This document shows positions 6,933 to 10,957 of a stretch of DNA of 64,000 bases, piece after piece. This DNA comes from Salinispira pacifica (lineage in GTDB: Bacteria; Spirochaetota; Spirochaetia; DSM-27196; Salinispiraceae). The DNA lies in assembly GCF_000507245.1 (NCBI RefSeq), contig NC_023035.1, forward strand, positions 2,461,570 to 2,525,569, in the 5' to 3' direction. Under the pieces are notes generated by a model that worked only from the letters and a program-made list of their open reading frames with translations, ran no database searches and was not told the DNA's origin. A program made the translations under genes and the position numbers. Numbering within the stretch: the first letter of the stretch is position 1; every line of letters begins with the position of its first letter.

Positions 6933-6961
6933 TTGACTTATGTGCATATGCACGCTAAAAT
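6933..6961 (+). promoter_or_regulatory. Sigma70-like promoter of the NifX/MinD operon
   Basis: TTGACT at 6933-6938 and TAAAAT at 6956-6961 are separated by exactly 17 nt. Transcription would start near 6968, giving a leader of about 90 nt before the ATG at 7060. The spacer contains a 12-bp perfect palindrome (6942-6953), so a bound repressor would cover the promoter. The stretch 6650-7059 holds only this promoter, its two operators and the octanucleotide repeat. Confidence 0.7.
6942..6953. promoter_or_regulatory. Operator 1: GTGCATATGCAC palindrome in the promoter spacer
   Basis: A perfect 12-bp palindrome lying between the -35 and -10 boxes. The same 12 bases recur at 6977-6988. The centres are 35 bp apart, close to three or three and a half helical turns. 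The identical pair inside and just after one promoter strongly suggests sites for a dimeric regulator. The UPF0251 DNA-binding protein encoded at the end of the operon is a candidate by position only. Confidence 0.7.
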
Positions 6962-6974
6962 ACAGATACATTAG

Positions 6975-6990
6975 GCGTGCATATGCACGC
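6975..6990. promoter_or_regulatory. Operator 2: GCGTGCATATGCACGC palindrome downstream of the promoter
   Basis: A perfect 16-bp palindrome containing the same 12-bp core as operator 1. It lies about 9-20 nt after the predicted transcription start, so binding here could block elongation or pair with operator 1. Confidence 0.7.
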
Positions 6991-7059
6991 TTCACTGGAC
7001 CCGGGGAATCTTTAAGACTCACCGGGGCATACGCTGATTGTCCAGTTCAGGAGGATTGT

Positions 7060-7305
7060 ATGAACGGAAACAGAAGAGGTCCGGAAAACGCAGGACCGGG
7101 AACCGGCAGAGGACTTGGGCTGTGCTCAGGCTACGAACAGCCCGGTTGTATGAATGAGGAAAAGGAACGGCTAGGTTTGGGACGAAGGGCCGGATACGGC
7201 CGGAGCAGAGGAGGACCCTCGGGGATGGGCCGGAAGTTCGAAAACCGGAGAGGCCGGCGCTTTGATCGGCGCGGCTCCCGCTTCCATGACTGGAGGCGTA
7301 CATGA
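7060..7305 (+). CDS. DUF5320-type small Gly/Arg-rich protein
   Basis: An 81-aa basic peptide, first gene of the operon. The N-terminal GPGTGRGLGLC motif is the hallmark of the DUF5320 family. Members are usually found beside NifX-like and MinD/Mrp-like iron-sulfur proteins, as here. The rest is rich in Gly, Arg and Lys, without membrane segments, and is probably flexible. Function is unknown; the context suggests iron-sulfur or metallocofactor handling. The start at 7060 has a strong CAGGAGG upstream. Its stop overlaps the next start by 4 nt (ATGA). Confidence 0.75.
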   Translation: MNGNRRGPENAGPGTGRGLGLCSGYEQPGCMNEEKERLGLGRRAGYGRSRGGPSGMGRKFENRRGRRFDRRGSRFHDWRRT

Positions 7306-7637
7306 TTCTTGGATTCTGCCTCAGCTCGGAAAATCCGGACGCCCCGCTGGATACTCGATTCGGCAGAGCGGCGTATTTTACTTTTATTGATTCGGATACC
7401 TCCCGGACGCTCTCAATCATGGAGAACCCGGGCAAGCATGCCGCCGGATCCGCGGGTATGGCTGCGGTGCAGATCTTCGCCGATCATCGGGCCGATGTGA
7501 TTATCGGGCCACGGCTTGGTCCCAAGGCGGAAGATGCGGCACGGGCGCTGGGATTAACCGTATACAGTCAGGGGGATTCCCGGAATGTGAGCGATGCACT
7601 CCAGCGCTTTCACAGCGGCAGCCTGGTATCAAGCTGA
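7302..7637 (+). CDS. NifX/NifB-like dinitrogenase cofactor-domain protein
   Basis: A 111-aa protein matching the small Nitro_FeMo-Co fold, with the N-terminal GFCLSSENPDAPLDTRFGRA pattern, a central IMENPGKHAAGSAG and ADVIIGPRLGPKA. These proteins bind metal-cluster precursors in nitrogenase maturation. Stand-alone forms in organisms without nitrogenase occur next to MinD-type ferredoxin ATPases and have no established role. No nif structural genes are in this window. It overlaps the preceding gene by 4 nt and shares TGATG with the following gene, so the genes are translationally coupled. Confidence 0.85.
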   Translation: MILGFCLSSENPDAPLDTRFGRAAYFTFIDSDTSRTLSIMENPGKHAAGSAGMAAVQIFADHRADVIIGPRLGPKAEDAARALGLTVYSQGDSRNVSDALQRFHSGSLVSS

Positions 7638-8494
7638 TGACGGTGGCGGTATTAAGCGGCAAAGGAGGGGCGGGGAAAACAACTTTTTCGGTTAACTGGG
7701 CACGGCTTCTGGGCGATGCATGGCTGCTGGACTGCGATGTGGAAGAGCCCAACTGTCATCTCTTCCTGCAGCCGGAGAACCAGTTCACCCGAACTGTGAC
7801 GCGAAGCGTACCGGTTCTCGACGCCCAAGCCTGCATTGGATGCGGAGCATGCGCCTCCTTCTGCGCATTCAATGCATTATTGATTTCAGGCGGGAATGTG
7901 GTTGTCATGGAAGATCTCTGCCATTCCTGCGGAGGCTGTGAAATTGTATGTCCCGCACATGCCATATCCTACCGGGAACATCCCATGGGAAGCATCACCG
8001 GGGGCAGTGCGGATAATCTGCAGCTTCTGTACGGAACACTGGCAATCGGGGAACATTCAGGGGTGCATATCATCAACACCATGCGGAAAGAATCTGCAGA
8101 ATCCGGGCTGGTGATTATCGATGCACCTCCGGGAACATCATGTTCAACCGTAGCAGCCATAAAAGGGGCCGATTACTGTGTGGTGGTTACCGAGCCCACC
8201 CCGTTCGGACTCAGCGATTTACGGATGGTGGAGGAGATGCTCAGGGAAATGGGGATGCCCTACGGTGTTGTAATCAACCGTGCCGACCTTGGAAACACAG
8301 AAGTGGAAGAACACTGCAACAATCAAAACACCGCAATTTTGGGCAGAATTCCCTTCGATTGGGAAATTGCAGGAGTAAACGGCAGGGGAGGAATCTTTGT
8401 GGATGAGCTCCACCGGCACCGGGAAAATATGCAGAAGATCAGTGAAGCGGTCTTCTTAACCATTCTTGAGGAGAACAGACATGGGACAACATAG
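7637..8494 (+). CDS. MinD-superfamily ATPase with inserted two-cluster ferredoxin domain (first copy)
   Basis: A cytoplasmic P-loop ATPase of 285 aa. The deviant Walker A motif GKGGAGKTT is at residues 8-16. After it, two [4Fe-4S] ferredoxin motifs are inserted (CIGCGACASFC and CHSCGGCEIVC), followed by the second half of the ATPase fold with VIIDAPPGTSC. This MinD/Mrp-ferredoxin architecture is known from anaerobes, typically as adjacent gene pairs next to NifX-like proteins, as seen here. It is likely a cluster carrier or an electron-linked ATPase; the exact role is unknown. It is coupled to the NifX-like gene upstream. The second copy begins inside its 3' end. Confidence 0.88.
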   Translation: MTVAVLSGKGGAGKTTFSVNWARLLGDAWLLDCDVEEPNCHLFLQPENQFTRTVTRSVPVLDAQACIGCGACASFCAFNALLISGGNVVVMEDLCHSCGGCEIVCPAHAISYREHPMGSITGGSADNLQLLYGTLAIGEHSGVHIINTMRKESAESGLVIIDAPPGTSCSTVAAIKGADYCVVVTEPTPFGLSDLRMVEEMLREMGMPYGVVINRADLGNTEVEEHCNNQNTAILGRIPFDWEIAGVNGRGGIFVDELHRHRENMQKISEAVFLTILEENRHGTT

Positions 8495-9362
8495 GCTGCG
8501 GGAGATTACCATCCTTTCCGGAAAAGGAGGAGCGGGGAAAACATCCCTCAGCGCATCCCTTCTTCCATGGCTGGATTCGCCCGTCCTGGCGGACTGCGAT
8601 GTGGATGCACCTGATTTTGATATTCTTCTTTCACCGGAGCTTGAGGAAAGCCGGGATTTTCAGGGAGCGCAGAAAGCCCGCATTGACCCTGAGCACTGCA
8701 GCCAATGCGGAGTGTGCATGCAGCATTGCCGATTTGATGCCATTGATCATATTCAGGGAGTCCATTACGTAGATCCGCACAGCTGTGAAGGCTGCGGGGT
8801 CTGTGCATTTGTGTGTCCTCACAACGCAGTGGATCTGAAACCGGCTGTGGTGGGGACGGTGAACCGTTCCAAAACCCCCTACGGTACCCTGATTCACGGT
8901 AAGCTGATTCCCGGAGAGGAAGCTTCAGGCAAACTGGTGAGCGAGGTGAGAAAATCCGCCCGTGAGCTTGCCGTCGCACAAAACGCCGGACTGATTATCG
9001 TGGACGGTCCCCCGGGAATCGGCTGTCCTGCCATCTCCTCAATCACCGGCACCGATCACGTGGTGCTGGTTACCGAGCCCTCCCCTTCGGGTTTTCACGA
9101 CCTGAAGCGCCTGGCGGAAGTGGTGAGCCGCTTCGCCCTGCCCATGACCCTGGTAATTAACAAATGGGATCTGGATGCTCCCCTCGCAGAACAGATCCAA
9201 CGGTTTGCGGAAGAACAAAACATTCCGGTTTCCATGAAAATCCCCTTTCACAGAGGCATTGTGGATTCTATACTGCAGAGACACATTCCATCCCTGGGAA
9301 TGAAAGAAGAATACGAAGAATGGGGCATGGAACAATTGATCCATGCACTGAAGGAAGGCTGA
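8481..9362 (+). CDS. MinD-superfamily ATPase with inserted two-cluster ferredoxin domain (second copy)
   Basis: A 293-aa paralogue of the preceding gene with the same domain order: Walker A GKGGAGKTS, ferredoxin motifs CSQCGVCMQHC and CEGCGVCAFVC, then VDGPPGIGCPA. The ATG at 8481 is chosen because GAGGAG lies 6-11 nt upstream. An ATG at 8466 would lack one. The start lies 14 nt inside the upstream gene. The two copies probably work as a heterodimer, which is inferred from their constant pairing in this gene arrangement. Confidence 0.88.
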   Translation: MGQHRLREITILSGKGGAGKTSLSASLLPWLDSPVLADCDVDAPDFDILLSPELEESRDFQGAQKARIDPEHCSQCGVCMQHCRFDAIDHIQGVHYVDPHSCEGCGVCAFVCPHNAVDLKPAVVGTVNRSKTPYGTLIHGKLIPGEEASGKLVSEVRKSARELAVAQNAGLIIVDGPPGIGCPAISSITGTDHVVLVTEPSPSGFHDLKRLAEVVSRFALPMTLVINKWDLDAPLAEQIQRFAEEQNIPVSMKIPFHRGIVDSILQRHIPSLGMKEEYEEWGMEQLIHALKEG

Positions 9363-9659
9363 GTGCCGGGAAGAAGAAAGCGGAGGAACTGCCGCTCCCT
9401 TGAAGGGGGGAGGAATTTTAAGCCGTCGGGGGTTCCATCCTACTCGCTGGAACGAATATCACTTGATCTTGACGAGTTTGAAGCAGTCAGGCTCTGCGAC
9501 CACGAAGGGAAAAGTCAGATTGAAGCAGCCCGGATCATGGAAATTTCCCGGGGAACTGTTCAGCGCCTTCTGGAAAGCGGACGCTGGAAGATTACCGAAA
9601 TTCTTCTCCATAACCATGAGCTTGTCATACCGGAATCTCCCGGCGATGATGCGCAGTAA
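9363..9659 (+). CDS. UPF0251 (DUF134) DNA-binding protein
   Basis: A 98-aa protein starting with GTG immediately after the upstream stop codon. It has a basic N-terminus (PGRRKRRNC) and an FxAVRLCD region, and the helix-turn-helix SQIEAARIMEISRGTVQRLL is characteristic of UPF0251. Members accompany NifX/MinD-ferredoxin operons and are presumed transcription factors. As the only DNA-binding protein in the operon it is the best candidate ligand for the two GTGCATATGCAC operators upstream (inference). Confidence 0.85.
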   Translation: MPGRRKRRNCRSLEGGRNFKPSGVPSYSLERISLDLDEFEAVRLCDHEGKSQIEAARIMEISRGTVQRLLESGRWKITEILLHNHELVIPESPGDDAQ

Positions 9660-9789: not shown

Positions 9790-9939
9790 ATGCGGATCAG
9801 TGAACAGCAGAAGATCTGCCCGGTATGCGGTCGGCCTTTTTCAAACAGAAAGAGATGGGATTCAAGAGGGCAGTGGGAACAGATCAAATATTGCAGCGAT
9901 TCATGTCGAAGAAAACGAAAACACATAAAACAACAGTGA
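9790..9939 (+). CDS. DUF2256 zinc-ribbon peptide
   Basis: A 49-aa gene, too short for routine prediction. The sequence has CPVCGRPF at residues 10-17, a conserved Trp/Arg-rich centre (RKRW) and YCSDSCRR at 34-41, giving four cysteines in two pairs. This is the pattern of DUF2256, a short zinc-binding family often found with flavin- or photolyase-related genes. Molecular function is unknown. The stop TGA overlaps the ATG of the next gene (TGATG). A promoter sits so close that the mRNA is probably leaderless. Confidence 0.85.
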
Positions 9940-10346
9940 TGCAGGACATTTTACGACTCAGCCGCGGGCAGGCAACTGTTTCCCGCCGGGGTTCCAGAGC
10001 TGTTCCCCACCGCCTGAATAAGAGCGAAATGCGGGAGTTTGAAAGGGCCGCAGAACGGGGCTATGCCGAATTCCCCTACCCCAGGCAGGCTCTGTTAAAT
10101 ACCTTCACTGAATTTCAGCATGCCCGGGAAAACACTGCCATTATTCACGAAAAGCAGAACCATGGCGATTACCTCCACTGGAATCCCCTGGTTACCGGTG
10201 ATGATAGCCCCGAGCCCCGGCTTCCCGCCGAGCTCCAGCCCTACCCTGCCCGGGTCACCATTCAGGGCTGGAAATTCGGCCCTATAGACAGGCAGACAGC
10301 ACGCTTACTCAGGGAGATACTATGCACATCAACCGGGAAGAAATAG
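9939..10346 (+). CDS. Conserved-looking hypothetical protein between DUF2256 and flavin reductase genes
   Basis: I do not recognise this 135-aa protein. It is soluble, with a basic N-terminal third (RGQATVSRRGSRAV), a central FPYPRQALLNTFTEFQHAR segment and a C-terminal WKFGPIDRQTARLLREIL helix. The start at 9939 overlaps the DUF2256 stop. The end overlaps the flavin reductase start by 25 nt, which argues that it is real and co-expressed. The reading frame stays open upstream to 9825, but that part is the out-of-frame DUF2256 gene. Confidence 0.65.
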   Translation: MQDILRLSRGQATVSRRGSRAVPHRLNKSEMREFERAAERGYAEFPYPRQALLNTFTEFQHARENTAIIHEKQNHGDYLHWNPLVTGDDSPEPRLPAELQPYPARVTIQGWKFGPIDRQTARLLREILCTSTGKK

Positions 10347-10957
10347 ATGGACTGGACCGGATATTCCGGCTGAATTTGATAAACTCGGTTACCGGAATCA
10401 AGCCGGCCAACCTGGTGGGTACACGCTCCCTGGATGGGCGTGAGAATCTGGCCATCATCAGTTCGGTGGTGCACATCGGCAGCAATCCGCCGCTTATCGG
10501 ATTCTTTGTCCGGCCCAGTCAACAGACCAGACGTCACAGCTATATCAACCTCCGGGAGACCGGAGTCTACAGCATCAACCATCTCCCCTCCACCATGTCC
10601 CGGCAGGGACACTGGACTTCTGCAAAATTCGGCAGGGAGGAGTCGGAGTTCGCATATTGCGGTTTTACTCCGGAGTATATTGAGGGATTCCCAGCCCCCC
10701 TGGTTCAGGAATCCCGTATCAAAATCGCCCTGGAATTCCGCCAGGCAATTCCCGTCAGCCTGAACGACACAACACTGGTGATCGGCGAGGTGATACACCT
10801 GCTTGCGGACGATGAACTGATCGGCTCGCAGGGGGCTTTGGATCTGGAACAAAGCGGGTCCGCCGGGATCTCCGGAGTGAGCGGATATTATGTACTGAAC
10901 AAAACCGCAGAATATCCCTACGCCCGCCGTGAGGAACTCCCGGATACCTGGAAGTAA
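10322..10957 (+). CDS. Flavin reductase-like domain protein (FMN-binding)
   Basis: A 211-aa protein of the flavin reductase/flavoredoxin family, a split-barrel fold binding FMN or FAD. It contains NLINSVTGIKPANLVGT, a serine-rich AIISSVVHIGSNPPLIGFFV strand pair and YSINHLPS, all typical of these proteins. Family members reduce flavin with NAD(P)H or accept electrons as flavoredoxins. The translational overlap with the upstream hypothetical gene and DUF2256 suggests one functional unit, perhaps involved in a flavin-dependent repair or photoreception process. That link is an inference from family habits only. Confidence 0.8.
   Translation: MHINREEIDGLDRIFRLNLINSVTGIKPANLVGTRSLDGRENLAIISSVVHIGSNPPLIGFFVRPSQQTRRHSYINLRETGVYSINHLPSTMSRQGHWTSAKFGREESEFAYCGFTPEYIEGFPAPLVQESRIKIALEFRQAIPVSLNDTTLVIGEVIHLLADDELIGSQGALDLEQSGSAGISGVSGYYVLNKTAEYPYARREELPDTWK

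Follow-up and report, generated by a model that had tools for sequence, protein, structure and literature searches.

Candidate palindromic operators of DUF134 (UPF0251) proteins, with a twin-site promoter of a NifX/MinD-ferredoxin operon in Salinispira pacifica

In the open-access literature, to which our survey was confined, we found no functional study of the protein family DUF134 (UPF0251, COG1342, PF02001): DUF134 is mentioned there only in lists or predictions, UPF0251 only as a transposon insertion in an adapted strain, and COG1342 only as a predicted halovirus DNA-binding protein. The best-matching NCBIfam DUF134 model is named "hypothetical protein", and the protein described here scores below the cut-off of that model. 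By sequence, the nearest solved relative of DUF134 is the DNA-binding domain of B. subtilis DeoR (7bhy, 8r7y), with the helix SRPTVSR; the DUF134 profile matches 7bhy_A with an E value of 1.5e-6 over 38 residues, which indicates a helix-turn-helix (HTH) homologous to that of SorC/DeoR. According to the available extracts of the 2024 DeoR/CggR paper, which calls its own full-length structure limited in resolution, the DeoR half-operator is TTGAACA, R39 contacts G4 and T14, R34 contacts a T, and a C-terminal sugar-phosphate-binding effector domain is the hallmark of SorC proteins (PMC11229326). In gene content, the operon described below resembles the orp operons of Desulfovibrio vulgaris (orange protein complex; MrpORP), for which the extracts available describe ATPases with two conserved [4Fe-4S] motifs and NifX-like (Di-Nase) domains (PMC6345978) and promoters that depend on sigma-54 and require IHF (PMC3897727).

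The stretch of DNA analysed here (64,000 nt; the window) contains a five-gene run (7060–9659) encoding a DUF5320 protein, a NifX-like protein, two MinD-like ATPases with inserted ferredoxin domains and, last, a DUF134 protein. The promoter elements and genes are as follows.

6933–6938, plus strand: -35 hexamer TTGACT, matching the consensus at 5 of 6 positions
6942–6953, no strand: proposed operator O1, GTGCATATGCAC, within the 17-bp promoter spacer
6956–6961, plus strand: -10 hexamer TAAAAT
6975–6990, no strand: proposed operator O2, GCGTGCATATGCACGC, a 16-bp perfect palindrome over the transcript start
7060–7305, plus strand: DUF5320 gene, glycine/arginine-rich product, first gene of the operon (PF17253, E 1.5e-7)
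7302–7637, plus strand: NifX-like gene (Nitro_FeMo-Co; PF02579, E 6e-15)
7637–8494, plus strand: MinD/NUBPL-type ATPase, copy a, with inserted 4Fe-4S ferredoxin domain (PF10609, PF01656, PF00037)
8481–9362, plus strand: MinD-type ATPase, copy b, with inserted 4Fe-4S ferredoxin domain (PF00037, PF01656)
9363–9659, plus strand: DUF134/UPF0251 gene, the proposed regulator (PF02001, E 7.9e-15)

The promoter TTGACT-17-TAAAAT (6933–6961) is sigma-70-like, matching the consensus at 10 of 12 positions, and carries proposed DUF134 operators, unlike the sigma-54 promoters of the orp operons. The initial annotation had described a perfect palindrome occurring twice here, once between -35 and -10 and once just past the predicted +1, and the sequence agrees in both sites and placement: GTGCATATGCAC lies at 6942–6953 and 6977–6988, with centres 35 bp apart. 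The second copy, which is the core of the 16-bp GCGTGCATATGCACGC, starts about 16 bp past the -10 hexamer, at roughly +9 to +20 from the inferred start site. Whole-genome search (3.78 Mb) found exact GTGCATATGCAC at these two sites only. Under a first-order Markov model, 0.0024 exact copies would be expected in a window and 0.14 in a genome of this size, and the chance that a given copy has another within 100 bp is about 7e-6. Seven one-mismatch copies are present in the genome, which is near chance level; since all seven are inside long reading frames, no second target is evident, i.e. none was found beyond this operon at up to one mismatch outside long reading frames.

The same annotation had placed a UPF0251 gene within the operon. 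That gene is real, its 98-residue product matching the PF02001 profile at residues 14–89 with 55.7 bits (cut-off 27). The recognition helix is S62-R63-G64-T65-V66-Q67-R68; in an alignment of 76 members, taken for structural work from the 108 non-redundant DUF134 sequences available, S62 and R63 are invariant and T65 and R68 nearly so. DUF134 shares a homeodomain-like HTH with DeoR. Unlike SorC/DeoR proteins, the window protein lacks the sugar-phosphate-binding domain of about 250 residues (no such Pfam match), and the partners of DUF134 are NifX-like. The alignment, and a pair of arginines spaced five residues apart in both DeoR and DUF134, suggest that R34 is the counterpart of R63 in the window protein and R39 that of R68; by this analogy the contact of R39 with G4, presumably the G of TTGAACA, would be matched by one between R68 and the G at half-site position 2. 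In the AlphaFold model of the window protein (mean pLDDT 90.9), the best fold matches are to sigma-70 region 4 (ECF SigR, RpoE and SigW), with Z scores of 6 to 7.5 over 50–60 residues; at Z below 8 this likeness is suggestive, and the match to Sigma70_r4_2 is barely above cut-off. Unlike sigma-70 factors, DUF134 has no region 2, only region-4-like matches, and it goes with palindromes whereas region 4 goes with single -35 elements. Downstream of the operon, a reading frame at 9825–10346 has no Pfam match and overlaps a flavin reductase gene (10322–10957).

To see how far the palindrome accompanies DUF134, 128 family members were sampled (the window, 17 relative loci, the best 80 of 533 collection matches, and 29 loci of the window's own phylum); three weak PF02001 loci (L044–L046), which do not match the window DUF134, were left out of the counts. 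Exact GTGCATATGCAC was present at 29 of the 71 sampled loci with an SR[GA]TxQR helix, a subfamily defined here to which the window belongs (helix SRGTVQR, two promoter copies) and in which it is counted, versus none of the 57 other sampled DUF134 loci. Conservation upstream of related DUF134 operons, predicted in the initial annotation for operators of a UPF0251-family regulator, was thus found, and the comparison supports the reading of the palindromes as candidate DUF134 operators. Among palindromic 12-mers at -150 to +30 of the gene, GTGCATATGCAC ranks first with 23 loci, the next one occurring at a single locus. The carriers, named as in the database records and mostly metagenome-assembled genomes (MAGs), include Spirochaetales, Halothermothrix, Halanaerobiales, Izemoplasma, an Acidobacteria MAG, Gemmatimonadota, Calditrichaeota, Zixiibacteriota, Saganbacteria, Aminicenantes and Clostridiales. 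A reverse search for exact TGTGCATATGCACA covered 494 genomes, of which 295 belong to the window's phylum and 199 to that of G346, and gave 12 places, 8 of them at most 1.5 kb from a DUF134 gene, and all 8 genes were of the SR[GA]TxQR type; because these loci overlap the earlier sets (L329, L322 and L331 are genes L103, L183 and L275, and L321 resembles the L085 locus), not all eight are independent. The other four places have no DUF134 gene within the locus; with about five chance matches estimated from genome size, these may be chance.

Those four sites, together with the consideration that the regulator of an operon may be encoded elsewhere, speak for another transcription factor, e.g. a redox or iron regulator of NifX/MinD operons, with DUF134 a mere passenger. 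Same-strand tblastn placed a window-like MinD gene close to only 12 of the 70 same-helix loci; the sites also precede DUF134 genes having no similar MinD neighbour, and at the MinD-ferredoxin loci of six DUF134-free genomes any class motif (at least 12/14) was found in 0 of 11. Both observations indicate that the motif follows DUF134 rather than MinD. At MinD-ferredoxin loci of DUF134-bearing genomes such a motif was present in 10 of 13, though this set contains pairs of overlapping loci and several loci that span the promoter of DUF134 itself. As same-strand tblastn undercounts partners, NifX was recounted by profile search, and 26 of the 28 loci with an exact operator, the window not counted, proved to have a NifX-like gene at most 3 kb away. 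Nine long DUF134 proteins, chosen as fusion-like, all contain DUF134 and Nitro_FeMo-Co domains, and such fusions include the window's helix type (L100, L103 and L093). Two further loci are worth noting. G047 has a single DUF134 gene, located on a different contig from the MinD operon (L341), the promoter of which has TGCACTTATGTTCA in its spacer; control of this operon by DUF134 in trans is possible. In the close relative L075, sites at -5288 and -3689 from DUF134 precede genes for a second NifX-like protein and a small, possibly secreted protein, so a DUF134 regulon can exceed one operon.

The 12-mer usually lies on a promoter of sigma-70 type, and its position there is also recurrent. In 25 of 32 distinct exact sites the -10 hexamer ends 6 or 12 bp before the centre of the palindrome; the commonest operator position in relatives is therefore just after the -10, like that of O2, with one operator at the transcription start in most of them. 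A twin partner 18–50 bp away was found for 6 of 103 primary sites, compared with 0.6 expected from shuffled flanks. Four of the six, from different phyla and helix classes, are spaced similarly (35 bp in the window, L281 and L286; 33 bp in L327) and have the -10 between both sites. Twin sites were considered as a rule of the family and rejected, single sites being predominant. That the repeat arose by chance or mutation and has no function is suggested only by the small size of the sites; given the copy number expected per window and the recurrence of the sites across many phyla at one promoter position, we assign it a negligible probability.

In other DUF134 subfamilies the CATATG core is kept but the palindrome as a whole differs: 1) the SRPTFxR subfamily has TGAACATATGTTCA, with a TGAACAT-type half-site; 2) the SRSTFxR subfamily has TGCACATATGTGCA; 3) the SRQTFGR subfamily has TGAGCATATGCTCA; 4) the SRQ[TS]FG[NL] subfamily has TTAGCATATGCTAA or TTGGCATATGCCAA. 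The first of these parallels DeoR, in that SRPTVSR reads TTGAACA (PMC11229326, in extract) and SRPTFxR goes with TGAACA; DUF134 half-sites abut at the CATATG centre, however, whereas those of DeoR are spaced. Rules for the class motifs were fixed before being applied to 125 held-out DUF134 genes (score out of 14, threshold at least 11/14); 10 genes duplicating training genes and one further duplicate were dropped before counting. Of 66 classifiable held-out genes, 28 had their own class motif as the best at this threshold (24 alone and 4 tied), compared with a mean of 12.9 and a maximum of 20 in 5000 shuffles, which ignore relatedness. By class the successes were QGN 4/4, QGR 7/11, P 15/45, GQR 2/5 and S 0/1. 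Another class gave a better fit for two of the five GQR genes (each with the helix SRATFQR), and 27 of the 45 held-out SRPTFxR genes lacked a motif at 11/14 or above; the many motif-less genes of the P class are a real gap.

Paralogues within single genomes follow the same pattern. In G050, a protein with SRSTFTR goes with TGCACATATGTGCA and one with SRGTVQR goes with TGTGCATATGCACA, and in G358 and G505 the operators of paralogues likewise differ in step with the helices. The source genome itself (G000) encodes three DUF134 proteins; one of these, L038 (helix SRQSFGL), has TTAGCATATGCCAA at the gene start, and it is by helix matching alone that we would choose the window protein, out of the three, as the binder of O1 and O2. 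In the SRQ[TS]FG[NL] group (L038, L039, L041 and L042) the TTAGCATATGCCAA-type operator contains or adjoins the start codon, its ATGCC(A) coding a conserved Met-Pro. In L038 and L039 a -10-like TATAAT is located about 6 bp before this operator, and the transcript is possibly leaderless, with an operator common to promoter and coding sequence. A C-terminal motif, C..C-n-CPxC, likely a zinc or iron-sulfur site, was detected in 42 of 64 proteins of the P class and 8 of 8 of the S class, but is rare in the window's class (3 of 76).

When sites were called without regard to class, CATATG-core palindromes were found upstream of 87 of 244 DUF134 genes, compared with 7.8 expected by a permutation that ignores relatedness; genes without a parsed helix or with too little upstream sequence did not enter this analysis. 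The remaining 157 genes have no such site at -120 to +12. Some of them are inside operons with a distant promoter. Genes of a large clostridial ARTTxQ group (L250–L285 and others) mostly have no CATATG-core palindrome upstream, which implies another target sequence or another role; this group seems to use something other than a CATATG-core operator. An Arg as the last residue of the helix goes with G at half-site position 2 (119 of 138 arms), and an Asn or Leu there goes with T (28 of 28). Using 86 of the 87 sites (one misaligned sequence was dropped) and correcting in part for relatedness, the partial correlation of the operator with four helix residues, given the rest of the protein, was 0.51, a value reached in none of 500 permutations, whereas that with the rest of the protein, given the helix, was -0.03. 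Proteins less than 40% identical outside the helix had 84% operator-arm identity when all four helix residues were shared, and 45% when none was. These data suggest that the residue after SR and the last Arg, Asn or Leu of the helix choose bases of the half-site.

This covariation bears on two of the alternatives. Were the sites bound by some other factor of the MinD operons, one would not expect the operator to change with the recognition helix of DUF134 while being unrelated to the remainder of the protein; taken with the DUF134-free controls, a separate regulator is judged unlikely, and a passenger role for DUF134 quite improbable. Alternatively, the second palindrome might act in RNA, as a hairpin of the 5' leader serving, e.g., stability or start-site control. 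The predicted leader (6968–7062) does fold at -34 kcal/mol (z -3.7), with the palindrome as its first hairpin and a second one 3' of it. Any perfect palindrome folds in this way, though, the first copy is upstream of the start site and not transcribed, and the variation tracks a DNA-binding helix, so this explanation appears very improbable. We consider it highly likely that the window DUF134 protein binds O1 and O2 and regulates its own operon. Site identity, promoter position, association with DUF134, the operators of the subfamilies and helix–base covariation all emerge from comparison of sequences, and from these patterns we infer physical binding, dimer stoichiometry, repression and cooperativity.

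In the mechanism we propose, one DUF134 dimer would occupy each 12–16-bp palindrome, each recognition helix (SRGTVQR, residues 62–68) reading one TGTGCAT-type half-site. Bound at O1 in the -35/-10 spacer and at O2 past the start, the protein would block RNA polymerase, resulting in negative autoregulation of the DUF5320/NifX-like/MinD-ferredoxin/DUF134 operon, and with the sites 35 bp apart two dimers may be bound together. Action as an activator, or as a repressor turning activator, is conceivable since some HTH regulators near the -35 or in the spacer are known to activate and the DUF134 fold is sigma-region-4-like. In most relatives, however, the site directly follows the -10, where a bound protein blocks polymerase, and many of these promoters are near the -35/-10 consensus, so that an activator should be unneeded; we therefore regard activation as rather unlikely and repression as probable. 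In the reading we favour, DUF134 proteins are autorepressors that act as dimers, resemble DeoR and sigma region 4, and are connected, often through fusion, with metal-cluster proteins of the NifX-like kind. The NifX-like protein, with its metal-cluster-type domain, might deliver a signal relieving or strengthening repression according to metal-cluster state. The initial annotation had suggested a regulator perhaps sensing iron-sulfur or redox state. The fusions make a metal-cluster signal plausible, no more, as they do a one-component repressor whose DNA binding depends on a ligand or cluster, and NifX-linked sensing of a metal-cluster or Fe-S signal by DUF134 is speculative, having in our estimate somewhat less than an even chance.

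Autoregulators with a palindrome-binding HTH are well known as a kind; the role of DUF134 and its operator code appear to be new. The family is frequent, being present in 140 of 199 sampled genomes of one clostridial-type phylum and in 62 of 295 of the window's own phylum. It gains from this comparison a likely function, sequence-specific promoter binding, predicted target sequences for several subfamilies, and a testable residue-to-base code. As a general picture we offer, more tentatively still, that DUF134 is a widespread regulator family whose DeoR/sigma-4-type HTH receives a metal-cluster signal from a NifX-like domain, either fused to it or encoded next to it, with a short helix code setting the operator. 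If this picture is true, cells would, via DUF134 and NifX, adjust iron-sulfur or heterometal cofactor assembly to supply. The comparison also suggests an uncharacterised layer of control over NifX/MinD-type metal-cluster genes, the sigma-54 orp operons being the published example of regulation that we found among such genes (PMC3897727, in extract).
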